The notes beneath the pieces were generated by a model. The model worked only from the letters and a program-made list of their open reading frames with translations. It did not search any database and was not told the DNA's origin. The position numbers were made by a program, and so were the translations under genes. From Chrysochromulina tobinii (Eukaryota > Haptophyta > Prymnesiales > Chrysochromulinaceae), in contig JWZX01003291.1 in NCBI GenBank assembly GCA_001275005.1, positions 1 through 38,792 of the forward strand: 38,792 nt of DNA. The letters are read 5' to 3'. Shown here piece after piece: positions 5,612 through 38,792 of the stretch; within the stretch, counting starts at the first letter, position 1; each line of letters opens with the position of its first letter.

Positions 5612-6754
5612 TCAGATGACACACACCGTCTCCGACCACTCGCCGCTCGAGCGGCGCATAAGGCCCTGGTGCCGCACCGCGTCCACGTTTGCTGCTTCTG
5701 CTGTTTCCCCCAGCTGCTCCCTCGGCTCGCGCCCCTCACCCTTCGTATCTTGCGGCCCGCCGCCATGCCCGCCGCCGCGGCTTGTCGGGTCAAGCGCGAG
5801 CCAAGAAATGCTCGAGAATGAGACGCGCTTCGGCGGCTTCTTGGCGGGGGTGTTGGCGTTGACTCCCTTCTCAACGACGGACGAGCGATTGGCGCAGTGG
5901 TGGGCGTTGGCTGCCTCCTCGACGATGGACGAGCGGTTGGCGCTGTGGTGGGCGTTGGCTCCCTCTTCGACGGTGGACGAGCGGTTGGCGCTGTGGTGGG
6001 CGTTGGCTCCCTCTTCGACGGTGGACGAGCGATTGGCGCTGTGGTGGGCGCTCCCCATACGGCGCCGCTGCGCCTGCGCCACCCACGCCTGCACGGCGTC
6101 ATCGGCACCGGAATCATCGCCGTCGGACATGGCGCCGAGCGAGCCTCGTGGCGAGAGCGGCGGCGGCGCGCGGAAGGAGCCCGCGGATTGGAGCGAATGG
6201 GACATCCCAACTTCCTCGAGGGAGCGCATCCGGTAGTCGGAGAGGTGCTCGAGCCGCCGGCTCTTTGCGCGGTCGTCGTCGGCGTCTTCAGACGAGGCCG
6301 GAGAGGGAGCACGGCTTGTCGTCGCACGGCTGCTACAGCCGCTGCCGCCGCCGCCACCGTTGCCGCCGCTGCCGCCGCCCGCGGGCTGCGTGAGCTCGCG
6401 CCGCCGGTCGTTGATGCACTGGGAGATGGCAGCGTACCACCGTTGGAGCTCGCGCTCGTCAAACGTGCGAAAACGAAGCCGACGGCCCGATTCGGAGATG
6501 ACGTCGATGACGGGGATCTTGTGAGGCACTTCGACCGCGACCGTGCAAGTCGCAAGCATCAGGTATCCGCTCGCGGTGTTCGATACGTCGTACCAGGCCA
6601 AAAGGTGAGGGTACACCTCGAGATATCTTTTGCTCCAGCGCCAGAATAGATGGGGGCTGTCCACGGGCTGCTTCTCGACGAAGCCCACCTTAAGGGCATG
6701 ACCCCGGGACGACTGCAGGTAGTTGAGCACGGCCGCGGCGTCCTGCTCGGCCAT
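5612..6754 (-). CDS. PH-domain protein with 16-residue tandem repeats
   Basis: 380 aa in a single exon. Residues about 20-115 have the layout of a pleckstrin homology domain: a basic first strand (KVGFVEKQ), the strand pair around FWRWSKRYLEV and LLAWYDV, and a C-terminal helix with the conserved Trp (ELQRWYAAI). PH domains bind phosphoinositides or proteins at membranes. The rest looks disordered: a Gly-rich linker, Ser/Pro-rich sequence, then four near-identical units around ANAHHSANRSSTVEEG (48-bp DNA repeat), and a Gly/Arg-rich tail. Its start is 253 bp from that of the CDKL kinase on the other strand, so they probably share a divergent promoter. Ligand and role are unknown. Confidence 0.75.
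   Translation of the reverse strand: MAEQDAAAVLNYLQSSRGHALKVGFVEKQPVDSPHLFWRWSKRYLEVYPHLLAWYDVSNTASGYLMLATCTVAVEVPHKIPVIDVISESGRRLRFRTFDERELQRWYAAISQCINDRRRELTQPAGGGSGGNGGGGGSGCSSRATTSRAPSPASSEDADDDRAKSRRLEHLSDYRMRSLEEVGMSHSLQSAGSFRAPPPLSPRGSLGAMSDGDDSGADDAVQAWVAQAQRRRMGSAHHSANRSSTVEEGANAHHSANRSSTVEEGANAHHSANRSSIVEEAANAHHCANRSSVVEKGVNANTPAKKPPKRVSFSSISWLALDPTSRGGGHGGGPQDTKGEGREPREQLGETAEAANVDAVRHQGLMRRSSGEWSETVCVI
5855..6050. repeat. 48-bp coding minisatellite, about four copies
   Basis: In-frame tandem repeat inside the PH-domain gene. The two middle copies are nearly identical and the outer ones diverge by a few bases. The unit is 16 codons, so copy-number change would not break the frame. 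Confidence 0.9.
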
Positions 6755-20313: not shown

Positions 20314-22903
20314 ATGCAGGCAGAGTCGCCTTCCTTGGTGGCCGAGGAGGTGATATTCGCAGAGCTCTCCTCGCCGACGCCTCTGCTGTCGCCCGGCACG
20401 CCACCCTTCGTCTTCTCGCGCCTCGACGACGAGGAGAAGGAGGACCTGCCCGACCCGGCTGATTACTTGGACGACGAAGACGAGGATGAGGACGGCGGAA
20501 TCGCGCAGTACGAATTGCGTCTGCACCACCCGGAGCGTTCGGGCGGCACGGTGCCGGTGCGTGCGGGTGGCGCGGGTGGCTCGGCCGCCGGCGCCTCGCG
20601 CGCCGCCTCGCTCGGCGTCGCCGTCGAGCGTGCGCACATGCAAGTTGACGAGCTGCGCCAGTTCAAGACGCTGTGTGACCGGCTGCTGCCCGGGCTGAGG
20701 TCGCAATCGCACTTGTACACGCTCATCCATTTGGACGATCGGACGTATACGCTCACGCTCTCTGAGTGGGGCGAGGTCATCGGCGGCGCCACCTTTCGCC
20801 TCGTGCAGGCGACGGACACGCCGTGGCTGCTGCTCGACGTGCTGCTCCTGGCCGTCGAGCAGCGGGCGGGCGTGTGCGGCCGTGGGCACGGCACGCGGCT
20901 GGTCAACTACCTCAAGGAGCTCGCCATGCGTGTCGCGCGCCGGCGCGGCCTCGCTGCCGCCCTCCTAGCCCAATCTGACTGGCAGGCGGAGGTACCCGGC
21001 GGAGGTGCCGCATGGCAATTCTGGACACGCCAACGCCTGCGGGCGACGCCGCAGGCGACGCTCCTGACGCGGGCGCTGTTCCAGTGGGACAAGGCGAACG
21101 AGGTGTACGCGCACGCCGCACCCATGCTCTGTTGGCTCTCTCCCTCGATGCCTCCACGTCACGTACTCTGTCCGGTACGGCTAAGCGCACGTGCTCAACA
21201 GCAGGTACGCGCATCTCCCCACCGAGCTCGCATCTCCCATCGAGCTCGCATCTCCCATCGAGCTCGGGCCGTCAAGAGTGCCTCTGATGGCCATCGATAC
21301 TCACTGATGGCCTCCCTCATCAGGCGAGCCTCGAGAAGCACTGATGACCTCTGATGAGCCCTGATGGCCTCCCTCATCAGGCGAGCCTCGAGAAGCACTG
21401 ATGACCTCTGATGAGCCCTGATTGCCTCCCTCATCAGGCGAGCCTCGAGAAGCACTGATGACCTCTGATGAGCCCTGATGGCCTCCCTCATCAGGCGAGC
21501 CTCGAGAAGCACTGATGACCTCTGATGAGCCCTGATGGCCTCCCTCATCAGGCGAGCCTCGAGAAGCCCGATGCCTTTCGGCACACGCGGCACACTCGGC
21601 GTGTGAATGTGAAGTTGCAGGGCGCGCTCACGCTGCTCCCGCCGATCGAGCCCATCGATGTCGAAGGCGAGCGCTGGGATGCGTCCGCGAACGTTGAGGT
21701 CCGCCCGCGCGACCGCGACCGAAGCCGCGGCGGCGGCGCCATCGCCCACGGCAGCGCCCACGGCAGCGCCCACGGCAGCGCCCACGGCAGCGCGCCACCG
21801 GCTCTGATGCGCCCGCTCGGGACGACGCTCGGGCCGCAAGCGGCACGTCGCCTCAAGTGTGAGGCGTGTGGGCAGCTGAGCAGCACCGACGACGTGTGTC
21901 GACCGGTCCAGCCGCAGCGCTCGCTTTCCGAGCCGGTGGCGTCGTCGTGGGCGCCGGTGGCCTCACCCGCATCGTCGCCGCGTCGTCATGGGCAGTCTAC
22001 CACAGCAGTGAGTTTCGTCAACGGATCGTCCTCCGGCGGGGCATCGCCGGTGCGCGCCTCGCGCCTGGCGCGCAGCAGCACTGTTGGCGCCGCCGCCGGC
22101 GCAGCCGAGCAGGTGCGCGAGTGCCGTTGCTGTGCACGGCAGCTCCACCAGATCTGCGATCACGATCGGCATAAGTTGTCAGACGCGGATGTGGAGCTGG
22201 CGCTGGCGGCACAGCGAGAGGCCGCCGCCGCGGCGGCGGCGCTCCACCTCGGCCTACCAGCCGCCGCCGACCCCGACCAGCAGTTTACGTGTGGTCGGTG
22301 CCTGGAGCTCATCGCGCGGGGAAGCGTACGTGACAGCACTGCCAGCGGCAGCGGCAGCGTCAGCGGCGGCGGCGGCAGCAGCAGCAGCAGAGAGGGTGTC
22401 GGCGGCGGCGGCGGCAAGGGCAAGCTTGCGGTCGACGGAATGCTCGCATTCCCAAATTTGGGAATGCTCGTGGTGGGCGAAGCGCGCGTGTGTCAGGCCG
22501 AGCTCCTCGTGCGCGTGTGTGCCGCGAGCGCAGCTTACCACGAACGCAAGCTCAAGGTCGATGCTTTGCTCGCCGTGCTCCGCCGCTATGCTCGCGTGCG
22601 CGTGCTCTTGGGCGGCGCGAGGCCCGTCGTCAAGGGCGAGTACCCCGCCATTCCCGTCAAGAGCACCGGGGGGACCGGCAGTGCTCGGGGCAGCGCTCGG
22701 GGCTCGGGTCGCGGCAGCGGGCGCGACGGTGGGCGCGGCGTCGGAGCAGGAAGAGGCATCAGCTCTCCCCATCCCCTCCCCTCCCCGTCTCCTGGCGCTA
22801 AGGGGCGGGCGGCGGCGCTGGCGCCAGTCAAGCAGCTCTCCGAAGAGGATGGAGGCGAGGGGCCTGCCTCGAGTCGCAAGCGTTCTGCAGAGAGCACATC
22901 GCT

Positions 22904-25091: not shown

Positions 25092-25497
25092 TCACTGCTG
25101 CATGGGCCGCGCGCCTGCGGCGGTCGGCAGGAGGCCGGCAAGCGTAGTTGGCGGCGGCCCTGAGCTCTCAGAAGTAGCCAACTCCATCCGGAGCTGCCGG
25201 GTGAAGTTCTCATCCTCCTCGTCATCCTCCCACCCGTCCTGCCACATTGTGGGGTCCTCGACCTCCTCCGATATCTTGGACCAATCCTGCTGCTCAAATT
25301 CCTCGAAATCGTCGTCTTCCTGCGCGCGCGGGCGAACGAGGTGCGCACGGATTAGCCTCCGAGCCAGGCGGGCGGCGCTCTGACGCAGCTATTTCAGGGG
25401 GGCTGGGCCGGGGGTTTACCTCAAGCACGTCGACAATCTCCTCTGGCTTGCCCGAAGCAGCCGCCGGCGCGGCGGGCGCGGGAGCAGCAGACGACAT
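25092..25497 (-). CDS. SEM1: SEM1/DSS1, small acidic proteasome and TREX-2 subunit, two exons
   Basis: Intrinsically disordered acidic subunit of the 26S proteasome lid, also found in TREX-2 and with BRCA2. Exon 1 is 25497-25420 (26 codons, starting Met-Ser-Ser-Ala-Ala), the intron is 25419-25320 (100 bp, donor GTAAAC, acceptor GCGCAG), and exon 2 is 25319-25092; 101 aa. The joint makes LEEDDDFEEFEQQDW, and WQDGWEDDEEDENFTRQLR follows. These are the two acidic Trp/Phe-containing binding sites of DSS1 in the right order and spacing, ending in the C-terminal helix. The N-terminal Ala/Pro stretch and the last 20 residues are longer than in animals or yeast. The start codon is only about 30 bp from the microsatellite where the retrotransposon begins, so its promoter may be displaced or supplied by the element. 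Confidence 0.9.
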
Positions 25498-25525: not shown

Positions 25526-25553
25526 AGTCAAGTCAAGTCAAGTCAAGTCAAGT
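25526..25553. repeat. AGTCA microsatellite
   Basis: Five full AGTCA units plus a partial one. It sits between the SEM1 start and the retrotransposon and may mark the 5' junction of the insertion or the insertion target. Confidence 0.85.
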
Positions 25554-25984
25554 TCAAAAATGGCGCCTTCGGCGCCGCCGCCTTTGGGGCGCACCACGGG
25601 CGCGAGATATCGGGTGGGCGCGCCGCGGCGCAAATGGCTGGGACTTGCAGCCCCGTTCTCGGGCATTATCCACATCCACTTCTTTTTCCAGGGCGCGACC
25701 TCCCAAGCTACCAACTTCGGGCATTTCCCTTTTCGTACAGTACAGTGCAATGCTGCATCCGGGCCCGTCGACAATCGGGGCGGTGTCGGTGCTGCGCGAG
25801 GGCTGGAATGGTCGCCGGGAACCCCATCTATCGGGGGCAACTGCCGGCGTTTCTTCACGCGCGCGCGTGGACCCCCTACCTCTTCTTTTACGCCCTTTTG
25901 GGCTAGACAAGGACCCGTCAGCTACTTCGAGCCGGTCTGGGGGGCCAAATTTCATGATCGGGGGCGCGCTGGTGGAGTGGCTCG

Positions 25985-27013
25985 ATGGACGATGGTGACG
26001 GCTGCGGTGGGCAGTTCTTCGTTCTGCTCGAGGAGTGCGCGCTGTGCTCCAGCAACGACTCATGGTCTGGCAGTGGCACGGCTGCAGCAGGAGCTCCACT
26101 TCCTGACCAACAACGAGGCAAGGAACGCGACGGGCCGCGCGACGCGGCGGGGCTCATCGATGCTGAGCATGCCAGCCGCGCTGGAGGCCCAGGCGGGCGA
26201 TCAATCGCGCCGCGGAGCACTCGCGAGCCTTCTTACTATGACGAGTTTGACCCCCTTTCGGGTCAGACAAGAGATCGGTTTTTCTTTTTGGACCGACTTC
26301 AAGAAGATCGGCGATCGGGCGCTGCGCGCATGGATGGCGCAGCGCGACGAGCGATGCGGCTCGCTGTGCGGCACGGCGATCGCGGGCTGCCGACGACGGA
26401 ATGCGAGTGGCAGCGAGCCGCGGCGGCTGCCGCAGCAGCCGCGACGCTCGAAGAAGAGCTCGATGACGAGCGCGTGCGCTACTTTGAGGGCGATGCGGCC
26501 GACTCGGAGCGTGAGCGCGATGAGCACGGCGCGTATCTTGACGAGCTGCATCGAGCCGCGTGTCTGCGGCGCACTTCTGGGTCCTTCTTCAAGCATCAAG
26601 TCGGATCGGGGCACGCCGCCACGACTGCCGAAGGGCTGCGCGACGCTGCTGCCGCAGTTTATCAATGCCGTCGGTCTGGCTGCCACACGCTCGTCGACGC
26701 CGGCAGGGCGCGCGCAGCGGCCCGTAAACGACCGAACGGCTCCTTCTGCGAAGGCGACGGATGCGCCGGGCCGCGCTGCGCCACTCGCTGGAGACCCGAT
26801 CGATTCGTGCCGAGGCAATGTGCGATGGCGTACAATCTCTTTCATGGCAGGCGGCGCTTGGCTGATTGGCCCGCCCGTGTGGGCGGTGGCTCTGGCACGC
26901 GACGCTCCAGGGCTTCCGGCGCGCGAGCTGCGCTTCTGGCTCTCGCCTGGCTGCAAGAGCTCGGGCTCTGCAGTTTCGAAGGTCCTCCTACGTCCTCCTC
27001 CTCGGCGCCTTGA
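25985..27013 (+). CDS. Candidate retrotransposon ORF1 (gag-like)
   Basis: 342 aa in the frame with strongest coding character for this stretch: G-starting codons dominate and the middle is acidic and helical (EEELDDERVRYFEGDAADSE). Towards the C-terminus a Cys-rich segment (YQCRRSGCH, then FCEGDGCAGPRC) could bind zinc, as gag-like ORF1 proteins of LINEs often do. The stop codon falls at the start of the 201-bp tandem repeat. The ORF2 frame is also open across this region, so a fused product from a Met at 25560 is the alternative. No family match was recognised. Confidence 0.45.
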   Translation: MDDGDGCGGQFFVLLEECALCSSNDSWSGSGTAAAGAPLPDQQRGKERDGPRDAAGLIDAEHASRAGGPGGRSIAPRSTREPSYYDEFDPLSGQTRDRFFFLDRLQEDRRSGAARMDGAARRAMRLAVRHGDRGLPTTECEWQRAAAAAAAAATLEEELDDERVRYFEGDAADSERERDEHGAYLDELHRAACLRRTSGSFFKHQVGSGHAATTAEGLRDAAAAVYQCRRSGCHTLVDAGRARAAARKRPNGSFCEGDGCAGPRCATRWRPDRFVPRQCAMAYNLFHGRRRLADWPARVGGGSGTRRSRASGARAALLALAWLQELGLCSFEGPPTSSSSAP

Positions 27014-27409
27014 CGCGCCGCTCGCGGGTGGGATGGGGGGATATCGGATCGGGTCCTCTGGTCGCGCTCCATGGCATGCCCCCGAGGGAAACCTCCGCGG
27101 GGCCTCTGTCGGAGGTCGGACTATGCGACTCATGGTTCGCCCTCACCACACCGCGGGGCCGCCTCTCTTGGCTGCCGCCACTGACCTTCCTCTTCTTCTC
27201 CATCGACACCTTGATGCGCCGCTCGCGGGTGGGATGGGGGGACATCGGATCGGGTCCTCTGGTCGCGCTCCATGGCATGCCCCCGAGGGAAACCTCCGCG
27301 GGGCCTCTGTCGGAGGCCGGACTATGCGACTCATGGTTCGCCCTCACCACACCGCGAGGCCGCCTCTCCTGGTTGCCTCCGCACTTCTCCTTTCTCTTCT
27401 TTTCCTGTT
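27008..27409. repeat. 201-bp tandem duplication at ORF1/ORF2 junction
   Basis: Two copies (27008-27208 and 27209-about 27400) with few differences in the first 160 bp. The period is 67 codons, so the ORF2 frame stays open. Both copies contain the same ATG context (27123 and 27324). Similar 200-bp monomers act as promoters at the 5' end of some mammalian L1 elements; whether that applies here is unknown. Confidence 0.92.
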
Positions 27410-30400
27410 CGGCGCGGGGGTGGCAGCCTGTCGTCGTTCGGAGCCGGACGTCACCCCTGACGAGCTGCACAAGGAGCTCCGGAGCATTGCGCAACTGCTG
27501 CGCCTGCACCACGAGAAGCTCTTGCTCATGGCCAAAACGGCGGCCGCGCCTGGAGCTTTCCAGGCATCGCGCGACGCCATCAAGGTGCTCGGCGGCAGGG
27601 AGGCGAAGCTCATCGCGTTACTGGCTGCCATGCCGTCCACGCGCGAGGTCCATGAAATTCGTGCGAACGTCGTGCAGAATTTTTACGCCGATCGCGACAA
27701 GCTCTCGTCGGCGATCCACGACGAAGTGACGAAATGCAGGACGCTCGAGGCCGAGCGCAGGCAGCCGATCTCTCACATCGGCATCGCCATCATCTGCTTG
27801 TCGCATCTTGCCGGTCTCGTTGGCGTCGCATGGTCTGCGCCATCTCCTCCGTCCTCTTCTCCTGTTCTACCTTCTTCTTCTGCATACTCTTCTTCTTACT
27901 ATTATTCTTCTTCCTCCTCATCTTCCCCTTCTTCCTCGGCTTCTTTCTCCGATTCTACTCGTGCTGACCCTCCTTCTTCCGTCGCGCTCATTGCGCCTAC
28001 TCTCGCGGGTACTTTTGCGTACACTCTTCCCACACCGCCCTCATCGCCGCCGCCCTCGCCGCCTGGATCTTCTTCTTCTTCTTCATCTTGTTCTCTCACT
28101 TCTTCGCCGGCGCGCCGTGTACGTCGCGTGCGGTGGCCTTCAGGCTCGCCACCGCCATCGCCGCCTCCATCGCCGACGGGAGCCTCGGATTCCTCGGCGG
28201 CGCCTTCGCCTCCTCCTTCGAGGACATCTTCGCGGCCGTCTTCACCAAAGGCACTGACTGCGGCCTCGCCTGCGCGCGAAGCGGCTCACGCGCGACGGCT
28301 GTCCTTGCAACCTGCACGATACGTGCCAGCCGCCTTTGGACGGCGGAGTATTCTCGCGACGGCGGCCGCAGCGGCGCAAAGCAGCACGATCGTCACGAAC
28401 GGCGAGCCGCCTGCAACCTTCGTGGCGTCGGCAGTCTGGACTGGCGCCATCGATGGCAAGGTCTTCAAGCGCGGCGCCTTTGGCGTGGGCTACTATGACG
28501 ACGGGCCGATCGCTGCGTGTGGCGAAGCGATCGTTGGACAGCGCGTGGGAACGGCACTATCCTTCGGCGCGGTCTCGATCAGCATGCGACCGTGCCAACA
28601 GGACTGCGACTGCGCGCGGTGCATACCGCGGCACGCGGATGCCAGACGGGCGCGCTTTGCCGGAGAGGCGGCGCTTCCGCCGCCGCCCCTGCCGACGCAT
28701 CGCATTACGGTGGCTGGCGGCAACGTCAACAAGACTGACGTCGTCGAGAAGACGCTCGCCTTCGCAATCCGGCAGCTTGACGGTGCCGACAAGCTGACGA
28801 GGCCGCGCGATCTTCTCAACGCGGGGCTCTTGAAGGCGCTATCGGCCCTAGGTGTTCATGACGGCGCTCTCGACGATTACGACGCGCTGCTAGCGCTGTT
28901 TCATGAGCGACAGGCCGTCAATCGCGCCGCTGTCGGCTGCGCAGCGGCAGTGGTTGTGGCAGCGGCTGCTGCTACGTCACGTCAGGCTAACGGTGCTCAC
29001 AGCGCGGCTGCCGCCGCGAGCGAGCGGTCGCGCGATGATCCCGAGGTGGTGTCAGTTTCGGCCGTCGCGGGCCTGAAGCGCAAGGTGGCTGCGGCGGTGC
29101 GCACGCTCGGTGAGTGTACCGCGAGCAGTGCACGGGCTGCTGCCGTCGCGATCGGCGGGCTTCATGCTGGGTCGGCCTTCGACAAGGCTGCCCAAGAGCG
29201 CGACGCGGCGGCGGCGGTCGCGAGCATGGTGGCCGCTGCGGTGACGGCCGAGGACCGCACTCGAAGCGCAGCCGCAGCGCGGGTCGGGTCATCGCACGAG
29301 ACGCAAGCCGAGATCGGGATGCGCGTCTACTGCAAGCTCGAGCTGCTCGAAGGGCAGCTACCGCACGAGGCCTGGCGGCTGGCTGTCATCCGGGGCCTCT
29401 TCTTCGTTGGTGCAGGCGAGGTCGAGGCTTTCGTCGAGTTCATCGTCATCGGCGCTCGTTGGTCGCTCGACGACTATCCGTATGTTGCCGAATGGAGCGC
29501 TGACGCGCTCAAAACGGCTGCGGCGAGAGAGCGGGATCGGCCGGCGCTCAAACAGCACAACGTCACTCTCGGACGAATGCTCGCCTTTGTTGGGCTCAAG
29601 GCGGTCGTGCCGCCGCCCCGGCCCGCGCTTGGCGTTGCGCTTAACCGATTACCCAGCGACACTATCGCCGCGGTTGGCGCCACCGGCGATGCAGGAAATG
29701 CCGTAACGCTGATCGTCTACGACGGGCGCGCCGCGCGCGCGACCGCGCTGCATCGCGTCCTTCAGGCCTACGCGTACGCGGCGGCCGGTTTCGCCACAGC
29801 GTGCCTGCCGACCATGTGGGAATGGCGCACTGCCCTTTGCGGCTCTTGCTCAGCGGCGCAATGGCTCGTGGCGCATTTTTTGCACTCCATCGGCTGGTCT
29901 GACGTTGTCGACGGCCTGGCAGCCTCAGCGGCACTCGCACGTTTCAAACGTGTGCTGCCCTGGCAGATGATTGCCGACGCGCTCGCGGATCTTTGCGAGA
30001 CTGACGTGTGCGTTTCGGTGCAAGCGCCGATGACACTCGGGCAGATCATCGGGTGCACGGGCAAGGCGCTCGGCGATGAGCTGCTGCGCGAAGCGATGAA
30101 GCTGCCACTGCAGCTCGAGCAGCTGCGTTCCGATGGTACGATCTCTGCGGCCGTGCTCGACTGGTGGCTGCGTGACGCGGCCTCTTTCATCGTCAAGTCC
30201 AAGTACAAGTTCGCCGAGGTGCTCGCCGCGCGCGCGGCCAAGCAGCAGCCCGCTCTACCGCGGCTGCCTCCGGGCGCATGTTGGATGGCCAGACAGGCTA
30301 AGGCGTACAAGATGGAGGTGGCGCTCAGCGACGCCAAATTCCTGCTCGAGCGGCTGCGGCGTGAGGCCAAGACGAAGGCGGAGGGCATCGTGCCTACATC

Positions 30401-33400
30401 GGCTACGGCGCCGCGCGCAGTGATCGAGGTGCAGCGAAGGCGCGCTTGCCTCGTTTGGAACCCCGGCGGCGTGCACGTCATCGACGCGAGGGCCGATCGC
30501 CGAGTGGGCGACCGTGAGCGTGCTATGCAAGGCAAACGGAGGGCGAGCGGCGCAGGAGCGCAGGCCGACGTGCGCGATCGCGAGCTGGCTGCGGCGATCG
30601 AGCGCGAGGACGAGGAGGACGGAGGCGGCGACGTGGGGCGGGGTTCAGCGCTCCGCTTCAAGGGCTGTGACGCGCTCGAGGCGATCATTGACCAAGTGAA
30701 GTCCAAGGACGCGCACCTGCTCGTGTTGTCCGAGACGCACTTGCACGGCCGCGCGGTCGATGACGTGGCCGATTACCTCGGCACGCGACTGGGCTGGCAG
30801 GATCTCGCCAAGGGGCGCAGTGGCGGCGCGCCTGAATATGTGCCGTGCGTCGTGCAGGCGCCGGCGGCGCGCGGTGAATGGGCGGGCGTACTGGTCGCTT
30901 TCGATCCGACAGTCTTCAAAAAGCTTGACGTGCAGATAGTCGTACCTGGACGCGTGCTGCAGATCGAGTTCCGAATGGTCGACGACTCTACGAATTTGAC
31001 GCTTTTCGCATGCTACATGCCTCAAGCCAATCTCCCACGCGAAGTGCACGACAAGGCTTGGGGCAAGCTCGAGGAGGCGCTGCTCACAGTGTGCGGCGCG
31101 TACGTGATTGCGGGCGACTTGAACGCGGAGACGGCGACTCGGCTGCTGAAGGCGCACAAGATCAACCTGAGCAAGGGCGGCGTGGTGAAGAGGCCGGGCG
31201 AGACCTATTTGTTCAAGCTCATGCACGGCACAAGCTTCCTCGAATTTGATCAGCCCACGAGGGTCGGGCGCGAGGAGTACACGCACCTGCACGTGGTGAG
31301 CGCGGCCTCGAAGGACGCGGAGGGCAATCTCGTCGAGGCCGTCACGAGCAAGCACGTCATCGACCACGTTCTCGAGGGCGGCTGCGATGGACGCGTCGGA
31401 GGCGGCGAGACCTTCACGGTCAAGGTCGGATCGGAGCCAAACAAGCAGTATCACAGGGCGCTGGGCTTTGCGATCATTACGACCGACACCGAGGAGATTG
31501 TCACGAGCGCGAATCGCAAACCGAAGCTCAGCAAGATGCCGAGGGTGTCGAGCAAGCCCAAGACGATGAGCAAGACGGGCAGCGACAAGCGCGACGGGGC
31601 CAAGCTGAAGAAGCGCCTGGTCACGATGGCCAACGCGCTGCCGGATCGTTTTGAGGATGGCACGGGCGGGCTCGTCGACGATGCCGAGTTGGGCGTGGAC
31701 GACTCTGACCTCGAGGAGGTGTTAGAGGGCGACGGTGATGCTGACGAGCTCATTGGTTGGGACGCGTACAAGGAAAGGGCGGCGAGCGCGAGCGAGTCGG
31801 CCATGAAGGACTGGGTGGCGGGGCGCGAGGGCGCGTGCGCCGAGGCGATGCAGCAGCTCGTTGGCCAAGGGCGGCCCATTGACGAGCGCAGCAGAGCGCT
31901 GGCGCGCGACGAGGCGGCGGCGCGCTACGCGGCGACGAACGGCACGTGCGTCGAGCATCTGATGCAGGCGTGCATGCTTGTGGCGCGCGAAGTCATCGCG
32001 GCGCCGCAGGCGGCCAAAGGGCGCAAGCAGTCGGCCGGCGAAGTGTTGCGGCGGAAGCTGGACAAGTACCTCGCGATCGAGAAGGAGGTCGAGGATCTGA
32101 AGATCACCGACATCGTCTTCGGCTACTGCGGCAAGATCAAGGGTCGCTGGAGGACGCGTGAGAGCGCGCTGACGCCCGAGCTCAAGCAGTTTTTCCTCCG
32201 CGACGCAGCGCCGCACGCGCCAGGCGAACGCAAGGCGCGCGAGCTTGTGCTCATACGGAGACGCGTCGACGAGTGCGTCAGGGAGGTCGAAGAGCATCGG
32301 CTGACTACTCGCGTCGACTATGTCAATGAGCAACTCACGATCTTGGCTGCCAGAGAGCTGGGGTACGCGCGAGCCGCTGCTGAGGTGATTCGAGCTGAGC
32401 GACGTGGGCTGATGTCCTCCAAGGACAAGGGCCCGGGCGGGACGCTGGTAGCTCTCGAAGACGAGGCGACCGGGCTGCTGCTCACTGGCGTGGCCCGCGA
32501 TAAGGCCGTCGCCGCCAAGGTGCGCTCGGGCAACACGCCAAATCTCGTCTGTCTCGAATCGGCTGGTCACCTTATGGACCTGTGCCGTATCGAGCGCGGC
32601 GAGCGCAGAGGAGGCAGCACGGCGCAGGGCAGCGGCGCGGCGTTTCAGGTCGTCGAGGACGCCGAGTGCCGGCTGGGTCGGCAGCCGCGCATCGCCCGAA
32701 ACCGAGAGCGCGTTGAGGCCTGTGTGCGGCCGCCGGCTGGCGACTTCGTCGTCGTTGGGAACGCGAGGTTTCCTGACGAGGCGCACGACGGCAGGGTACG
32801 GTACGACGGCAGCAGGAAGGGCATTCTGGGCAGTCCATTTCGGATGGGTCTCGACGGGCGCGACGAGAACTTGCGAGATCTCTCGTGCGAGTGCTATCGA
32901 GAGTGGCTTGAGACGGGCGGTGATGCGTACGCGATCGCGGTGGCCAAGTGTTTCCCAATCGAGTGCGTCGCGCCGGGTCACGGGCGGATCTGCAGCGCCG
33001 ACATCGAGGCCGAGATCGAGTCGCTCGTCGAGATCGTCGTCGAGCTCGACAAGCGCCTCGTGCTCGAGTGCGGGTGCGCGCCGAAGCGGTGCCATCTCGC
33101 GTGCATCGCGGAAAAGTGCAACACGCTGATCCGTGCGAAGCGTGCCTTGAGATCCAAGCAGGCTGCCGATGCGCGCGATGCCGGCGGCGCGGCGGCTTGC
33201 GAGCAGTGTGGCGAGGGCGTCGTGCAGGAGGGCGGAGGCGCGGCCGATGCTGATGCGCTATTGGCGAAGGTCGTCGCTGATGCTGTCGCTCAAAAGGGCG
33301 ATGTGTCAGGCTTTGTCGAGGCGGGCACGGCGGCGCAGCATCACGTCACGCGTGACGAGGAGAGCAGCGGTCAGCGGGCCGACGAGGCGACGCACGAGGG

Positions 33401-36400
33401 ATCGCGTGGCGCTGGGCACGCCACGGAGGCCGATTCAGCAAGGGAGCGCGCTCGCGAGCGCGACGCGTGGCATGAGGAACTGCGCAGCGTCATCGGCGCC
33501 ACGGGTGCTTCTGACGGCGATAAGGCGTCTGCCTTCGACTATTGGACCGGCGAGTACCAGCTCGAGTTCAACGAGAGCGGCGACCGGTGCACCGACCAGC
33601 GAGCACGGGCGCTGCTGCAACGGCTGCTCACGCCCGAGCGCGTCCTCGAGTTGACCAAGCTGGTCAAAGAGAAGCTCGCCACCGGGTTGGACGAGTTCAA
33701 CTTGGTGCTCGTCAAGCAGGGCGGGCTTGAGCTCGCCAAGCTCTTCGCTGACGCGTGCGTGGAGGAGGTGGCGGTCTTTTCATTCCCGACGAGCTGGACT
33801 ACCTGGCACGCGACGTTGATCCCGAAGCCGGGCAAAGATCGTTGCAAGCTCAGCGGCTGGAGGGAGATTTGGATCCAGTCGCATCTGTGGAAGCTCGTGG
33901 TCGGCGCCATCCTGCCCGAGTGCGCTGAGGTTTTTGCGCGCACGCGACCATGGTGCAACGCCGGCTTCGAGGCCGGGCGAGGCTGTCCCGAGCAGTCGGC
34001 GGCACTGCGCGCGCGGCTTGAGCTGCACATGCGGCTGCGGCAGCCACTACACGTCTACTTTCAGGACTATTCCGTCTTTTTTCCGTCGATCTCGAGGCAG
34101 CTTGTCGCCTTCATCCTGCATGAGCTGGGCGTGAGCACAGTCTCGATGCAGATTCTTCGAGAAGTCCAAGATCAAGTGATGGGAGCGTTCAAGACGGCGG
34201 GCGGTCCCACTGAGCTGGCCCCGATGCTGAGAGGCGAGCCCATCGGCGGCGTCGAATCGCCGTTGTTCTCGCTGCCTGTGGCGGCGCTCGTACAGCGCGC
34301 ACTCGAGACCTACGTGCCGGGCAGCCCACTGCCGGATCGGCGCGAGCTGCGTGTCGCTGCGCTGCAGCTGTGGTATGCCGACGACGGCGCACTTGCTGAC
34401 GCCGTCGAGGGCATCATCCAGACGGCGGTGGACATCATGATCTTGCTGTCGGAGGAGATCCTGGGGCTCAAGGTCGGGCACGACACGGTCGAGGCGTCCA
34501 AGTCGGCGTCGCTGTCGTGGACATGGGACAAGTCGCGCAACGAGTTCGTGCGTGGCAACGGAAACAAGTTCAAGGTGCCGTTGGGTAGCTCACGAGAGGA
34601 CATCGAGCTCGCGCGTGCAATCACCTATCGATACCTGGGCATTGACTTCGACCCTGAGCTCGACGTGACCAAAGTGGAGGAGTCGTATCGCGCGCGGGCC
34701 AGCGCAATCATCACCATGATCAACAATCTTGGCGGCGGGTACTGCGACCAGCTCGCGCAGGCGGTGAATACGGTCGTACAGGGCGTTTTCATCTTCCCGG
34801 CGAGGACGATTCCTTTCACGGAGGTCGCGTCGAAGGCGCTCGACATCAAGGCGACTAAGCTGCTCTTCAACCACGGCAATCGCGCCAGGCACTCCAAGAT
34901 CGTGGGTGCTTACGTCGCAGGCAAGTATGGAGGCCTCGGGCTGCGACCGGGGCGGTCGACGATGGCGGCCGGGCTGCTCGACGAGATGGCGCGCGCCTGG
35001 GGTGGCCGACACGGCGAGCCCGCGCGTGCAGTTCGGCTCTCCTTGCAGACGGTCTTCGTGGCGAGCCTGGGCTGGGACGGGCCGTCGGCGGAGGCGCCGA
35101 CCGTCTTCGACTTCATCATCAACGAGCGATGGCTACCTTGTTTCAGGAGCGAGGTCCCGATGGAGGGCGTAGCGCTGCATATGGCACGGCTGGGACTGCG
35201 GTGGCGCGGCACGGGCGTTGACGAGTGCCGGCTGGACAAGCAACGCGCGATCGAGCGAGGAGTGTTGCCAGGTCGCAAAGTGCGCCTCATCGAGCTGCTC
35301 GGCGTGACGCCCTCGCTACGCCTGCACGGGCTGGGCATCAGCAGCCTCGATGAGCTACACGCTGGTGGCGGCGAGCTGCTCAGCGCTGAACGGATCGAGG
35401 TCATCTATGCGAGGCCCGGTTGGGCGTGGAGCGACGTGGACAGAGCGCATGTCCGACGGCTGCTGCGTGAAGTCGCCGGCAACGATCGCGCAAAGGTCGC
35501 GCTCGACGACTGGAGAGAGCACGGCGCGCCGATGGGAGGCGAGATCGCGCTTATTGAGCGGATCAACGTGGGGAGACGGAGTGCGCTGCGCATGTTCTCT
35601 CGTATCGTGGGGATTATGTGGTGCAAGGACGCAGAGGGCGGCCGGCCCGACGAGCGCTCCTATGAGGTGATCTTCTGCGGCGCTCGGCTGCGCGACGCAG
35701 TATGGCTCACCCGGGCGCAAGTGCTGGAGGGCGCGGCGAGGCGCGACGCCGCCACGACTGTGTGCAGCCCTGGCGAGCCCATCGAGATCGATGAGGTGAC
35801 CGCGTGGATGGACGAGGCTGACGCATCGAGGTGGGAGCCGAGCACTTTCAACCGCTTCCTGACGCGGCTTCGAGGGCCGCAAGGCGCGGCCGAGCTGCTC
35901 GCCAAGGCCAGTCGAGCGGCAGGGCTCAATCGCGACGCGGCGCAAGCTCGTGTCGAGCTCACTGACGTCCTGCTGCTGGACTACGCGGCGCTGAGAGCTA
36001 AAGGCGTGAGCGCCAAGGAGGTCAATCTTCGCGAGGATCGGATCGCTGATGAGGCGAGGAGGCACGAAGTCGAGGAGTACTCGACTGCGTGGACGATCAC
36101 GTGCACGGGCGCGCTGCGACAGGCTCACACAGTCGAGGAGCGTATGGGCGCCGTTCGGGCGATGCCCGTACCGACTTACGCCGACGGTGGCGCGGTGCCT
36201 GAGTCTGACGTGCAGGTCGCTTTCGACGGGGTGGCATGGAAGGCTGCCAAGGATAACGGCAGTCTTTGGAGCGGGTGGCGCGGTCCCAATCACAAGGTCG
36301 CTGAATTCGAACGCGCGCCCGCGGCGTTCGCGTCAGCTGTCACGCGCAGTTTCTCGCGAGCGTATGAGGCCGAACGTTCGCCAGAGGGCCTGACGTGCGT

Positions 36401-38792
36401 GAACGCGTACGGCGGGCTGCTGCAGATTCGTATTGCGCGCGATGAGGCTGCGCTCATCGCGAGCGATCTCAATCTGGCGCTGCTGCGCGAGATCGGCAAG
36501 ATCGAGATGGTCTGCAAGCAGCGCGGCCGGGGCGGCTTCAAGCTCGTGGCGGCTACTGATGGCGCTTACTGCAAGGCGAAGGCGCTCAGTGCGCGCGACG
36601 CGCTGCGGTACGAGCTGGCAAGCGATGCTGAGCGCGTGCAGCGCAAATTGCGAGCGCCTTACGAGCCGCCGCAGGTGGCTAGCGGCGTCTTTTACGGGCT
36701 GCAGGCTCCTGGGAGCGCCGTGCCGGTGGCTGAGGGCAGGCGGCTGCCGGCCGAGTTCGATAACAATCAGGCGGAGCTCGACGGCCTCATACTCGCGCTT
36801 CGTCGTCACGTGGCCTTGCTGACCGGCATCTCGGTCCACGAGGTCTTGCGGCGGCTGCTGCACGACTGCGAGTACGCCATCGGCCCGGCCGCGAGCGCTG
36901 ACGAGGGTGAGGACGAGCTTGATGCTATGTCGGCCCGCGATGGCGAGGCCGACACGAGCGGCCCGAGAGAGGCGCGCGATCTGCTCATCATTATCGACAG
37001 CGAGATCATCGCCAGCTTCTTTCAGCGGGCGTGGCGCAGGGGCGACATCAAGTGGCTGCGCGGCGAGACGTACGGCCTGCGCATGGAGGAGGCGATCCTG
37101 TTACGGATCTGGCTCAGGACGCTCGGCGCCGAGGTCCACACTCTACGGTTGAGCTCTCATTGCGGCTTCATCCCGAACGTCTGGGCTGACGCGATCGCCA
37201 ATGCCGCGCGGCTTTTGGACTGCGACGGCGAGCCGCCTCTCGTCGTGCGTCGCCCCTTGGCCTTTTTGTGTAAGGTCGGCGGCGACGGCAAGTCGTGGCG
37301 TGGACCGGGCGCGTCGCTACCGCGGAGCGCGTGCGGGATGGCGAGCTCATCAGCGGAGCTCGACGCGCGGACTTCTAAGGAGATTCGCGAGCTGAGCGAC
37401 ACTTGCGCGCTGCACAAGCTCGTCGAGAACGACGTCAAGGTGTTTCGCGCCTCACGGCAGGGTCGCGAGGCGCGCGACGAGATCGACGGGATCGTCTTTC
37501 TGCCCAGGTGCTCGCGGCACGCCCAACTCGGCGAGCAGCTTTTGGACAGCGACGCGAGCAAGCAGGCCAAGGGTCTTTTCGAGCAAGCGAGACACGAGCT
37601 GCGCAGCGTCGCCGACGGCGAGCTATCGGCTGAGCTCATCGAGGGACGGTTGTACGCTGCCCCGTTCTTTGACTACGTCGGGGTGGGGCTCGACGTGACC
37701 AAGGGCATGCAGATCTTCGACCGGCGCATTCAGACCCCGCTCTCTACGCAGAGGGGAGGCGGTTTCGGCGGGCCGCTCGAGCTCACGCGTGTGGGCATGC
37801 GGCACTTACTGCGCAACTTCACGCAGAGCGCGTTGCCCGAGCTGGGCGATGGCATCGACGACAGCGCGAGAGTCGCGGGCGAGACTCTGCCGCTGTGCAG
37901 GTGCCCGGTTTGTCGTCGGGAGTGCAGGTGCGACCTTTTTCATTTCTTCGAGTGCCCGCACGGGCTGAGCGAGGCAGCGAGGGTGGCTTGCTGCAGCGCG
38001 CTCGAGCAGCACGCGTCTATGATAGGTGCGCCGCGCGCCGGCGACGGCGAGGGCGAGGGCGACTTGCATTTGGAGCTGGCCTGGGCGAGGGTGGCCTTGC
38101 TTGCCGAGCGGCTGCCGGGTGAGCTTGGGCGGTACCGCAGGTATTTGGCCGCCAAGGCGCTCGCAGGCGCCTTTGCGTTGCCAGCGGCGTCTTCAGTGAA
38201 GGAGGCTGTCATGGACAGCCTTCGCGCCGGCGTGAGCGTGAGCACGGCAGAGGCCGATGAGGCTGACGACGGCGACGGCGACAACGGCGATACGCAGGAC
38301 GAGTGGGAGGAGGCGCGCCCGCCGGGCGAGTTCGACTACGAGCAGTGCGCAGGGGCGCGGCGCGATCTGCTCAAATGGTACGTCGGGAAGGCTATCGCGC
38401 TCAACACGGTTATCATCGACCACTTGCGCATCGAGTACAGCGCGTGGGTCGAATCGTTGCGGCGTGGGCATGCAGGGCTGCGTGGCGCATACGGAAGCGA
38501 CTACATGAGTCATTTCCTTGGCGGCAGGGAGCGAGTCTGCGATGAGCAGCTGCGTGGCACCTTCTTCCCGACCGACGGCAGCGTGGCCGTGCCAATGAGC
38601 CTCGCCGACTTCAAGGTTGGGCACAAGAGCGACGAGATGCGGCCGGGCCGCTTCGTGCGCATCGTGGGCGGCGAGACGATCGCGTGCACGCACGGCACCG
38701 CAGCGAGCAGGTACGAGGCGCAGGCTAGCAGGCGCGCGAGCGCCAAGGCGGCGGCGGATCTCGCAAGGGAGGAGGGCAGCTTCAGGTACGCG
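27324..38792 (+). CDS. Giant retrotransposon ORF2 polyprotein (partial, no stop in window)
   Basis: At least 3,823 aa from the Met at 27324; in-frame Mets at 27123 and 27033 are alternatives. 27324 is chosen because a hydrophobic, signal-anchor-like segment follows at once (about residues 12-35). Order: hydrophobic segment; charged helical stretch 40-150; second hydrophobic segment near 153-172; Ser/Pro-rich low-complexity region to about 330; about 780 residues not recognised; endonuclease 1109-1389; about 400 residues, partly helical; DUF4326-like 1808-1936; reverse transcriptase 2153-2441; about 630 residues; RNase H 3073-3298; Cys/His cluster near 3525-3546; an acidic then basic tail to the edge. 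I read every codon from 25164 to the last base and found no stop. Usual LINE ORF2 proteins are about 900-1,500 aa. Introns or proteolytic processing cannot be excluded. Confidence 0.85.
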   Translation, partial: MRLMVRPHHTARPPLLVASALLLSLLFLFGAGVAACRRSEPDVTPDELHKELRSIAQLLRLHHEKLLLMAKTAAAPGAFQASRDAIKVLGGREAKLIALLAAMPSTREVHEIRANVVQNFYADRDKLSSAIHDEVTKCRTLEAERRQPISHIGIAIICLSHLAGLVGVAWSAPSPPSSSPVLPSSSAYSSSYYYSSSSSSSPSSSASFSDSTRADPPSSVALIAPTLAGTFAYTLPTPPSSPPPSPPGSSSSSSSCSLTSSPARRVRRVRWPSGSPPPSPPPSPTGASDSSAAPSPPPSRTSSRPSSPKALTAASPAREAAHARRLSLQPARYVPAAFGRRSILATAAAAAQSSTIVTNGEPPATFVASAVWTGAIDGKVFKRGAFGVGYYDDGPIAACGEAIVGQRVGTALSFGAVSISMRPCQQDCDCARCIPRHADARRARFAGEAALPPPPLPTHRITVAGGNVNKTDVVEKTLAFAIRQLDGADKLTRPRDLLNAGLLKALSALGVHDGALDDYDALLALFHERQAVNRAAVGCAAAVVVAAAAATSRQANGAHSAAAAASERSRDDPEVVSVSAVAGLKRKVAAAVRTLGECTASSARAAAVAIGGLHAGSAFDKAAQERDAAAAVASMVAAAVTAEDRTRSAAAARVGSSHETQAEIGMRVYCKLELLEGQLPHEAWRLAVIRGLFFVGAGEVEAFVEFIVIGARWSLDDYPYVAEWSADALKTAAARERDRPALKQHNVTLGRMLAFVGLKAVVPPPRPALGVALNRLPSDTIAAVGATGDAGNAVTLIVYDGRAARATALHRVLQAYAYAAAGFATACLPTMWEWRTALCGSCSAAQWLVAHFLHSIGWSDVVDGLAASAALARFKRVLPWQMIADALADLCETDVCVSVQAPMTLGQIIGCTGKALGDELLREAMKLPLQLEQLRSDGTISAAVLDWWLRDAASFIVKSKYKFAEVLAARAAKQQPALPRLPPGACWMARQAKAYKMEVALSDAKFLLERLRREAKTKAEGIVPTSATAPRAVIEVQRRRACLVWNPGGVHVIDARADRRVGDRERAMQGKRRASGAGAQADVRDRELAAAIEREDEEDGGGDVGRGSALRFKGCDALEAIIDQVKSKDAHLLVLSETHLHGRAVDDVADYLGTRLGWQDLAKGRSGGAPEYVPCVVQAPAARGEWAGVLVAFDPTVFKKLDVQIVVPGRVLQIEFRMVDDSTNLTLFACYMPQANLPREVHDKAWGKLEEALLTVCGAYVIAGDLNAETATRLLKAHKINLSKGGVVKRPGETYLFKLMHGTSFLEFDQPTRVGREEYTHLHVVSAASKDAEGNLVEAVTSKHVIDHVLEGGCDGRVGGGETFTVKVGSEPNKQYHRALGFAIITTDTEEIVTSANRKPKLSKMPRVSSKPKTMSKTGSDKRDGAKLKKRLVTMANALPDRFEDGTGGLVDDAELGVDDSDLEEVLEGDGDADELIGWDAYKERAASASESAMKDWVAGREGACAEAMQQLVGQGRPIDERSRALARDEAAARYAATNGTCVEHLMQACMLVAREVIAAPQAAKGRKQSAGEVLRRKLDKYLAIEKEVEDLKITDIVFGYCGKIKGRWRTRESALTPELKQFFLRDAAPHAPGERKARELVLIRRRVDECVREVEEHRLTTRVDYVNEQLTILAARELGYARAAAEVIRAERRGLMSSKDKGPGGTLVALEDEATGLLLTGVARDKAVAAKVRSGNTPNLVCLESAGHLMDLCRIERGERRGGSTAQGSGAAFQVVEDAECRLGRQPRIARNRERVEACVRPPAGDFVVVGNARFPDEAHDGRVRYDGSRKGILGSPFRMGLDGRDENLRDLSCECYREWLETGGDAYAIAVAKCFPIECVAPGHGRICSADIEAEIESLVEIVVELDKRLVLECGCAPKRCHLACIAEKCNTLIRAKRALRSKQAADARDAGGAAACEQCGEGVVQEGGGAADADALLAKVVADAVAQKGDVSGFVEAGTAAQHHVTRDEESSGQRADEATHEGSRGAGHATEADSARERARERDAWHEELRSVIGATGASDGDKASAFDYWTGEYQLEFNESGDRCTDQRARALLQRLLTPERVLELTKLVKEKLATGLDEFNLVLVKQGGLELAKLFADACVEEVAVFSFPTSWTTWHATLIPKPGKDRCKLSGWREIWIQSHLWKLVVGAILPECAEVFARTRPWCNAGFEAGRGCPEQSAALRARLELHMRLRQPLHVYFQDYSVFFPSISRQLVAFILHELGVSTVSMQILREVQDQVMGAFKTAGGPTELAPMLRGEPIGGVESPLFSLPVAALVQRALETYVPGSPLPDRRELRVAALQLWYADDGALADAVEGIIQTAVDIMILLSEEILGLKVGHDTVEASKSASLSWTWDKSRNEFVRGNGNKFKVPLGSSREDIELARAITYRYLGIDFDPELDVTKVEESYRARASAIITMINNLGGGYCDQLAQAVNTVVQGVFIFPARTIPFTEVASKALDIKATKLLFNHGNRARHSKIVGAYVAGKYGGLGLRPGRSTMAAGLLDEMARAWGGRHGEPARAVRLSLQTVFVASLGWDGPSAEAPTVFDFIINERWLPCFRSEVPMEGVALHMARLGLRWRGTGVDECRLDKQRAIERGVLPGRKVRLIELLGVTPSLRLHGLGISSLDELHAGGGELLSAERIEVIYARPGWAWSDVDRAHVRRLLREVAGNDRAKVALDDWREHGAPMGGEIALIERINVGRRSALRMFSRIVGIMWCKDAEGGRPDERSYEVIFCGARLRDAVWLTRAQVLEGAARRDAATTVCSPGEPIEIDEVTAWMDEADASRWEPSTFNRFLTRLRGPQGAAELLAKASRAAGLNRDAAQARVELTDVLLLDYAALRAKGVSAKEVNLREDRIADEARRHEVEEYSTAWTITCTGALRQAHTVEERMGAVRAMPVPTYADGGAVPESDVQVAFDGVAWKAAKDNGSLWSGWRGPNHKVAEFERAPAAFASAVTRSFSRAYEAERSPEGLTCVNAYGGLLQIRIARDEAALIASDLNLALLREIGKIEMVCKQRGRGGFKLVAATDGAYCKAKALSARDALRYELASDAERVQRKLRAPYEPPQVASGVFYGLQAPGSAVPVAEGRRLPAEFDNNQAELDGLILALRRHVALLTGISVHEVLRRLLHDCEYAIGPAASADEGEDELDAMSARDGEADTSGPREARDLLIIIDSEIIASFFQRAWRRGDIKWLRGETYGLRMEEAILLRIWLRTLGAEVHTLRLSSHCGFIPNVWADAIANAARLLDCDGEPPLVVRRPLAFLCKVGGDGKSWRGPGASLPRSACGMASSSAELDARTSKEIRELSDTCALHKLVENDVKVFRASRQGREARDEIDGIVFLPRCSRHAQLGEQLLDSDASKQAKGLFEQARHELRSVADGELSAELIEGRLYAAPFFDYVGVGLDVTKGMQIFDRRIQTPLSTQRGGGFGGPLELTRVGMRHLLRNFTQSALPELGDGIDDSARVAGETLPLCRCPVCRRECRCDLFHFFECPHGLSEAARVACCSALEQHASMIGAPRAGDGEGEGDLHLELAWARVALLAERLPGELGRYRRYLAAKALAGAFALPAASSVKEAVMDSLRAGVSVSTAEADEADDGDGDNGDTQDEWEEARPPGEFDYEQCAGARRDLLKWYVGKAIALNTVIIDHLRIEYSAWVESLRRGHAGLRGAYGSDYMSHFLGGRERVCDEQLRGTFFPTDGSVAVPMSLADFKVGHKSDEMRPGRFVRIVGGETIACTHGTAASRYEAQASRRASAKAAADLAREEGSFRYA
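27843..28101. repeat. TCT/TCC/CCG low-complexity tract in ORF2
   Basis: Pyrimidine-rich TCT/TCC runs at about 27869-27952 and 28068-28095, with CCG-rich sequence between them, encode Ser- and Pro-rich, extensin-like sequence in the ORF2 frame. It separates the membrane-like N-terminus from the rest of the polyprotein. Confidence 0.85.
30648..31490 (+). other. APE-type endonuclease domain of ORF2
   Basis: Endonuclease/exonuclease/phosphatase fold that nicks target DNA to prime reverse transcription. Motifs in order: LLVLSETHL with metal-binding Glu at 30732; GVLVAFD; LFACYMPQ; IAGDLNAE with GDLN at 31113-31124; KHVIDHVL with Asp at 31362; and YHRALG with the general-base His at 31452. All catalytic positions are present; the final motif is Tyr-His rather than Asp-His. 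Confidence 0.88.
32745..33130 (+). other. DUF4326-like module of ORF2
   Basis: The segment shows the two landmarks of DUF4326, a small domain mostly known from phages and bacteria: GSPFRMG (32829-32849; family Gly-Asn-Pro-Phe) followed by YREWL (32895-32909), then CGCAPKRCH (33069-33095; family Cys-Trp-Cys-Ala-Pro-x-x-Cys-His). An insert separates the halves, longer than I expect for the family. The biochemical role of DUF4326 is not established. The Cys/His set could bind a metal. Confidence 0.7.
33780..34646 (+). other. Reverse transcriptase domain of ORF2
   Basis: Motifs in order: LIPKPGKD (33816-33839); motif A in YFQDYSVFFPSIS with catalytic Asp at 34065; motif B-like GGVESPL (34245-34265); motif C YADD at 34374-34385; and YLGID (34632-34646). 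Motif B lacks the common Gln before Gly-Gly. The two motif C Asp residues and the motif A Asp are present, so it should be active. The thumb region probably extends further downstream. Confidence 0.92.
36540..37215 (+). other. RNase H domain of ORF2
   Basis: All four active-site positions are recognisable: Asp at 36558 (VAATDGAY), Glu at 36774 (NNQAELDGLILAL), Asp at 36996 (LLIIIDSEI) and Asp at 37188, preceded by His at 37158 (SHCGFIPNVWADAIANAA). RNase H removes the RNA strand of the hybrid. Presence downstream of RT fits I-type or related non-LTR clades. A long acidic insert lies between the second and third motifs. Confidence 0.88.
37896..37961 (+). other. C-terminal Cys/His cluster of ORF2
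   Basis: CRCPVCRRECRCDLFHFFEC then Pro-His: Cys-x2-Cys followed by His-x3-Cys, like the zinc-knuckle found after RT/RNase H in many LINE ORF2 proteins, thought to aid RNA binding. Extra Cys residues make the exact ligand set unclear. Confidence 0.7.

Follow-up and report, generated by a model that had tools for sequence, protein, structure and literature searches.

What is encoded by a plus-strand reading frame that runs to the very end of a contig without a stop, and whether it belongs to one gene, are the questions raised by contig C2132 of the haptophyte alga Chrysochromulina tobinii. This complete contig of 38,792 bp is the window analysed here, and the genome searched comprises 53.15 Mb in 2,253 contigs. 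The C. tobin genome has been described in print with 63.4% GC, 59 Mb and 3,472 contigs (main text of PMC4580454). Base counts give the window a GC content of 64.7%. Ordinary host gene families were found by Pfam scan in five of the ten ORFs upstream of 25.3 kb; between 7402 and 20103 the scan names a protein kinase, a UDP-galactopyranose mutase, a Rad51-like protein, an MFS transporter and an EF-hand protein. Tandem repeats are present at 5855-6050 (48-bp unit, 4.1 copies, 92%) and at 21304-21567 (57-bp unit, 4.6 copies, 99%), and the contig starts with 29 G in a run (1-29), which is probably a sequencing or assembly artefact. An Rfam search of the window gave no matches. The end of the contig is a non-LTR retrotransposon whose main protein exceeds 4,000 amino acids and contains an extra domain, DUF4326.

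The frame is free of stops from 25356 to the last base (38792), a length of 4,479 codons. The earlier note had let it open at 25164, which is wrong, since a TAG at 25353-25355 directly precedes the true opening; its count of 3,823 codons without a stop from 27324 to the last base was reproduced on recomputation. About 115 stops are expected across the whole frame from overall base frequencies and about 61 in the 3,462 codons from 28407 from position-specific base frequencies, and none is present.

The window copy represents the 5' part of the element, about 13.3 kb, and starts near 25526; all features of this copy described below lie on the plus strand. At its 5' end stands a terminal (AAGTC)n tract (25526..25553, detected by TRF), the reverse complement of the (GACTT)n 3' tail of the family, and similar tracts are found on other copies, both full-length and truncated. 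The 5' untranslated region (25554..25957) can be aligned with copies in C1185 and C846, with 69% identity to C1185 over 25534-25936 (BLAST). The first 73 bp of the element's 5' end, including the tract, recur with 100% identity in C119 next to a different flank. Short stretches elsewhere in the genome (L057, L058 and L059) carry the 5' box GCGAGATATCGGG of the window family and are perhaps non-autonomous relatives.

ORF1 (25985..27013, 342 aa) lies in a frame different from that of ORF2, contains Cys/His in its C-terminal half and has homologous ORFs in C1185 and C846. Comparison with C1185 gives a dN/dS of 0.205 over 26400-27000 for the ORF1 frame and of 1.53 over 26355-26970 for the giant frame. 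In the three 200-bp bins of 26401-27000, the C1185 mismatches at giant-frame position 2 number 34, 17 and 17, with 5-13 at positions 1 and 3; this position is the wobble position of ORF1, and ORF1 is therefore the coding frame there. From 28.4 kb on, mismatches fall mainly at position 3 of the giant frame in nearly all 200-bp bins. The assumption that 25.4-27.0 kb belongs to the same coding frame is thus mistaken: across ORF1 the absence of stops from the giant frame is a chance effect of GC-rich DNA. A single gene spanning 25.2-38.8 kb was rejected on the dN/dS and mismatch periodicity of ORF1. The earlier note had named several separate ORFs as an outcome that would speak against it, and this was found in part, ORF1 being a gene of its own in another frame.

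ORF2 (27033..38792, from the ORF scan and the database protein P0004) is still open at the contig end. An ATG stands at 27033, 20 nt past the ORF1 stop, and an in-frame tandem repeat with a 201-bp unit (27008..27377; 1.8 copies, 96% matches by TRF) begins at that stop. Because of this duplication the start of ORF2 is ambiguous; it may be 27033, 27324 or another position before 28.4 kb. From 27324 on, P0004 and the window agree in 3,822 of 3,823 residues; P0004 then continues for 350 residues, to a total of 4,173 aa. It is encoded on a 14,826-bp contig and heads no isolated record, its cluster holding 10 sequences; it may come from the same alga, even from the same reads. Judged from P0004, the window copy appears to lack the last 350 codons of ORF2 as well as the 3' UTR. 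The earlier estimate of an ORF2 about three times the usual length is supported by the comparison of these 4,173 aa with the 1,275 aa of human L1 ORF2p (PDB 8sxt).

A search for other copies in the genome, proposed as a check on the frame, yielded C1185, C2201, C1272, C846 and more. C1185 (13626-29813) contains an open frame of 5,097 codons with its stop close to the contig end. It is diverged from the window copy by about 26-31% in DNA and aligns in frame over 3,028 columns with 64% identity. From 28407 on, all 11 tested segments have a dN/dS of 0.13-0.52 against C1185: in order, 0.26, 0.44, 0.38, 0.23 (endonuclease), 0.29, 0.29 (DUF4326), 0.52, 0.13 (RT), 0.24, 0.24 (RNase H) and 0.25, all of them rough values because synonymous divergence is high (dS 0.7-1.6). 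C2201 and C1272 align to the same parts of the element with broken frames. With a frame of 5,097 codons maintained in a diverged copy under the same constraint, the missing stops are unlikely to stem from an assembly error; an assembly artefact was rejected on this ground and on the agreement with P0004.

The long frame could also be a by-product of biased codon use in GC-rich DNA, concealing several shorter genes, possibly with introns. Other frames of the window reach up to 1,264 codons, coding status apart, the ORF1 region of the giant frame is itself open by chance, and the annotated Ctob_004847 is a split model of C1272. This protein (P0007, called partial) is encoded by C1272 in three pieces at 97-100% identity, and the model omits 3704-4352, where the frame of that copy breaks. 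Against such an origin stand the constraint on every segment tested and the in-frame alignment of C1185, which make it very improbable.

The N-terminal part of ORF2 (27033..28406) is absent from C1185, in part hydrophobic and rich in Ser/Pro. Over 27030-28390 no meaningful alignment with C1185 was obtained, dS being saturated and the C1185 sequence being different there. This stretch is putatively coding by its base composition, and within 27033..28406 coding-like GC by codon position was found only in the bins 27430-27829. The corresponding stretch of C1185 (16640-17630) is unrelated to that of the window and by eye somewhat cysteine-protease-like; it gave no Pfam match. In the window, the N-terminal part is followed by a conserved N-terminal region of no recognised fold (28407..30449; dN/dS 0.26-0.44 in three segments). 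No Pfam family was found within 27324-30398, and the structure model of 28374-30620 (pLDDT 36) is unusable.

The claim of an intact endonuclease, RT and RNase H stands as far as the expected motifs are concerned, all of which are present; Pfam is weak for the first and silent for the other two. The APE-type endonuclease (30450..31373) shows the motifs NPGG, SETHL, GDLNAE and IDH. Its PF03372 score in the window is 18 bits, under the cut-off of 24.5, and 24.7 bits in the relative C2112. The reverse transcriptase (33560..35000) has motifs A, B and C, the last being YADD at 34374, and a dN/dS of 0.13. Among the nine PDB matches listed for the RT region, seven are R2 or L1 ORF2p, weak at E 0.0046-0.27; the remaining two are a different RNA-directed DNA polymerase and an unrelated protein. 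The RT assignment gains further support from genomic loci that match RVT_1 as well as the window RT region. An RNase H-like domain with D, E, D, D motifs follows at 36549..37205 (the dN/dS given above covers 36400-37150), and then a Cys/His knuckle-like motif at 37896..37961, recognised in the sequence. The database relative P0005 (3,296 aa) is 46% identical over the RT region. The order in the element is thus ORF1 and then the giant ORF2 with endonuclease, DUF4326, RT and RNase H motifs.

Taken together, the endonuclease and RT motifs, the 5' truncation, the tail and the duplications described below place the element, by sequence characters, among the APE-type non-LTR retrotransposons. For a Penelope-like element, no GIY-YIG Pfam family was found in ORF2, and the endonuclease motifs are APE-type. 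The element shares with LINE-1 and R2 the endonuclease/RT logic, the 5' truncation, the simple-repeat 3' tail and the target duplications, besides the weak RT matches to R2 and L1 ORF2p chains. It differs from LINE-1 in an ORF2 of more than 4,000 aa, and from both in DUF4326 and the 5' inverted tail. Human L1 and R2 are not known to carry RNase H, whereas ORF2 of this element has RNase H motifs. Long frames are frequent at RT loci of this genome: at least 2,000 codons are reached at 7 of 26 RVT_1 matches and at 11 of 27 matches to the window RT region, the window included.

The giant ORF2 had been recognised in the earlier note, which contained neither DUF4326 nor the 3' end nor the inverted tails. 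DUF4326 (PF14216; 32814..33113) lies between the endonuclease and the RT and was identified by Pfam, by phrog_464 (E 1.2e-6) and by its motif, CGCAPKRCH at 33069-33095. Its score in the window straddles the cut-off of 25, with 27.7 bits in the genome scan and 23.9 and 19.3 in protein scans; in C1185 (29.6 bits) and C2201 (32.7 bits) it is above the cut-off. The structure model of the window domain has a pLDDT of 72, and its 37 Foldseek matches, with a best E of 2.6, include none that is meaningful.

DUF4326 gives 11 matches across the genome, three of which are the window family (C2132, C1185 and C2201). The Cys, Cys and Cys-His of the motif are invariant in all 10 aligned sequences, C519 being omitted from the 11. 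In eight of the 11 matches other retroelement domains or motifs occur in the same frame or family, for C2009 and C2005 by eye or similarity only; C1464, C448 and C519 are without assignment to an element. In C2174, C108 and C2005 the domain stands near the start of the frame stretch read. It is followed in C2174 by a weak DNA-methyltransferase match (phrog_757, 0.0023), and in both C2174 and C108 the same frame continues into RT motifs (YIDD and YVDD) and RNase H-like sequence. In our reading of the frames L111-L115, these two RTs would be of the DIRS type. C2005 resembles C108 by eye over the stretch fetched, and C2009 shows, by eye only, the order RT-like YTDD stretch, DUF4326, RNase H-like sequence. 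P0005 has neither a Pfam match nor the DUF4326 motif, so an intact domain is not required in every relative.

DUF4326 is predicted to be of a rhodanese-phosphatase type acting on ADP-ribose derivatives, and in phages and nucleocytoviruses it is fused to SLOG, Macro, NADAR or components of DNA replication and restriction-modification, according to passages of PMC9503650 and PMC7824862. The proteins of the alga resemble these viral ones in that the same Pfam domain is joined to other enzymes, and differ in that it lies inside retrotransposon polyproteins. No account of DUF4326 in retrotransposons was recognised in the portion of the open-licence PMC literature covered.

A second giant LINE-like frame was found in C2112 (69-14483; L106/L107), with 4,805 codons, the endonuclease already mentioned and RT motifs. 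Its RNase H (23.6, cut-off 25.8) and DnaJ (24.8, cut-off 27.8) scores fall below the Pfam cut-offs, and DUF4326 is present on the C-terminal side with 36.8 bits. Along this side align six database proteins (P0008-P0013), all with DUF4326; DnaJ is found in four of them, scoring above the cut-off in two (P0010, P0011) and slightly short of it in the other two (P0012, P0013), and the RNase H of P0013 is just under its cut-off. The RT stretch of C2112 gave a single PDB match, to a coat protein (E 0.19). No tail of the window-family type was found in the stretch of C2112 read, and the inverted tail is accordingly not common to all giant elements here.

The ends of the window family were defined on other copies, from which all tail and duplication evidence comes, the 3' end of the window copy being beyond the contig. 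Copies C1272, C2201 and C1706 have TCGATAGGCTTCCGTNNGGTTGTCTGTTGTTTATG in common at their 3' ends, and after it come repeats of the AACTT, GAACTT or GACTT type. This motif occurs 124 times in the genome at up to 3 mismatches and not once when read backwards. Forty of the 124 loci were fetched, all exact matches, and three (L069, L076 and L078) were dropped for the contig end. In seven of the remaining 37 (L066, L073, L079, L080, L088, L092 and L100) the sequence stopped short of the 5' junction or the reference gave no means of placing it; these were set aside by eye, from where the alignment stopped, and 30 resolved junctions were kept. In L079 and L100 the sequence upstream of the shared 3' UTR looks by eye like the repeats in the C2112 3' UTR, as though families had exchanged their 3' ends. 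The 3' tails are (GACTT)n, (GAACTT)n or (AACTG)n, with a tail match of 7-28 bp in all 37 copies. Variable 5' truncation is evident in the 30 resolved copies, whose starts lie between 1 and 429 bases upstream of the 3' motif.

In 27 of these 30 insertions a tract of 10-48 bp stands at or near the 5' junction and repeats, in reverse complement, the unit of the copy's own 3' tail: AAGTC with GACTT in 17, CAGTT with AACTG in seven and AAGTTC with GAACTT in three. The exceptions are L089, with both senses and as such the only one of the 30 with a same-sense tract, and L077 and L090, with no tract. Such tracts also stand at the 5' ends in the window, C119, C1185 and C846, and at the truncated 5' ends of C1706 and C1375. 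The unit class agrees with the copy's own 3' tail in 27 of 27 cases, a value never reached in 100,000 permutations (maximum 24); since this match partly follows subfamily, use of a single RNA at the two ends is not proved by it. Of the 27 tracts, 22 touch or overlap the element (by 0-4 bp in 20, by 7 and 11 bp in two); the other five lie 3-42 bp away, the gap being partly a further tract in L081, L097 and L102.

Flanking duplications of at least 8 bp occur in 14 of the 30 copies and in 8 of 870 mismatched pairs; for at least 6 bp the counts are 18 of 30 and 73 of 870. Because up to six bases of tract or tail fall within the search windows, a match can come out longer than it is (as in L072), and 16 of the 30 copies have no duplication of at least 8 bp. 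Where duplications are visible they adjoin host sequence outside the tracts; they enclose the tracts, and the tract is therefore part of the insertion in these copies.

The sense of the tracts bears on how they arise. First-strand cDNA made on the sense RNA yields only the GACTT sense on the plus strand, so that AAGTC needs another route: either the other target 3'-OH was extended on the RNA tail, or cDNA was copied. The 5' tract exceeds the 3' tail in length in 20 of the 27 copies (Wilcoxon p 0.0004), and this excess favours reiterative copying. The overall explanation preferred here, which we consider probable, is an APE-type element with ORF1 and a giant ORF2, the inverted tails of whose family are made by two-ended priming on the RNA tail. 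ORF2 would be translated after ORF1 from the same RNA, and its endonuclease would nick the target. The RT would begin copying at the short-unit repeat of the RNA 3' end by target-primed reverse transcription; the second target 3'-OH would likewise be elongated with the RNA tail repeat as template, in a reiterative, telomerase-like manner. The two strands would then be joined, and most insertions would thereby gain an inverted tail. DUF4326 would act on ADP-ribose-type nucleotides, possibly against a host defence signal, as the published prediction would have it. The step of two-ended priming on the tail repeat, taken by itself, is judged somewhat less firmly, as the likelier origin of the tracts. 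In a tentative extension of this reading, the RT would act as a telomerase does at both target ends, attaching reiterated tail units to each 3'-OH and copying the element from one of them, so that almost all insertions would be capped by newly made inverted repeats; separately, retroelements of this alga would have recruited DUF4326 several times as a counter-defence enzyme, in line with what is proposed for giant viruses and phages.

The alternative that survives best is a snap-back, in which, after first-strand synthesis, the 3' end of the cDNA pairs with the (AAGTC)n DNA at the 5' end of the same cDNA and is extended on it. It yields the same inverted outcome and explains why no antisense 3' UTR was seen by eye beyond the tracts in the copies printed. 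With such copying, the length of the 3' tail would tend to set an upper limit for the 5' tract, against the excess observed, although slippage could rescue it; on balance it appears unlikely. The other possibility concerns the target itself. The genome is rich in (AAGTC)4, with 469 + 438 overlapping matches. The reversed (AAGTC)4 control (87 + 62) is not neutral, being the AACTG unit that is also a family tail, and reversed (AAGTTC)4 (51 + 33 against 33 + 52) is that repeat as read from the opposite strand, so that both controls are useless as a background rate. That the tracts were already present in target microsatellites preferred by the element is nevertheless rejected as hardly credible, as the visible target duplications flank the tracts on the outer side, the tract unit follows the copy's own tail throughout, and an opened target array would give the same sense at both ends, where the ends here are inverted.

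Two-ended priming has a known counterpart in L1 twin priming, in which the second target end primes on the same RNA and part of the element body is inverted in a minority of insertions. The proposed likeness is the priming of the second target end on the same RNA; the difference is that here the tail repeat alone is inverted (by eye), and in 27 of 30 resolved copies. An inverted element body of the L1 type was not seen at the 5' ends, the printed tracts holding, as judged by eye, tail repeats and no antisense 3' UTR. The I factor of Drosophila likewise has a tail of short repeat units at the 3' end of its RNA, and slippage occurs when copying begins; we know of no 5' inverted tail in it.

Within the part of the open-licence PMC literature covered, no account was recognised of LINEs with inverted tails at the 5' end, of haptophyte LINEs, those of this alga included, or of giant LINEs; the word beginnings 'transpos' and 'retro' are absent from the main text of PMC4580454. 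The part covered likewise yielded no description of either the near-constant inverted tail or DUF4326 in retroelements.

The giant ORF2 is a warning that gene callers requiring a stop can miss such elements at contig ends and that annotation can split them. To our knowledge, the origin of the second target strand and of the 5' end of LINE insertions is a long-standing open question. A 5' junction that records its template, through the inverse tail unit, makes this second-strand question testable by sequence and in vitro. Up to four retroelement architectures with DUF4326 occur in a single algal genome, which suggests that the nucleotide-based defence proposed for phages and giant viruses may also confront cellular retroelements.
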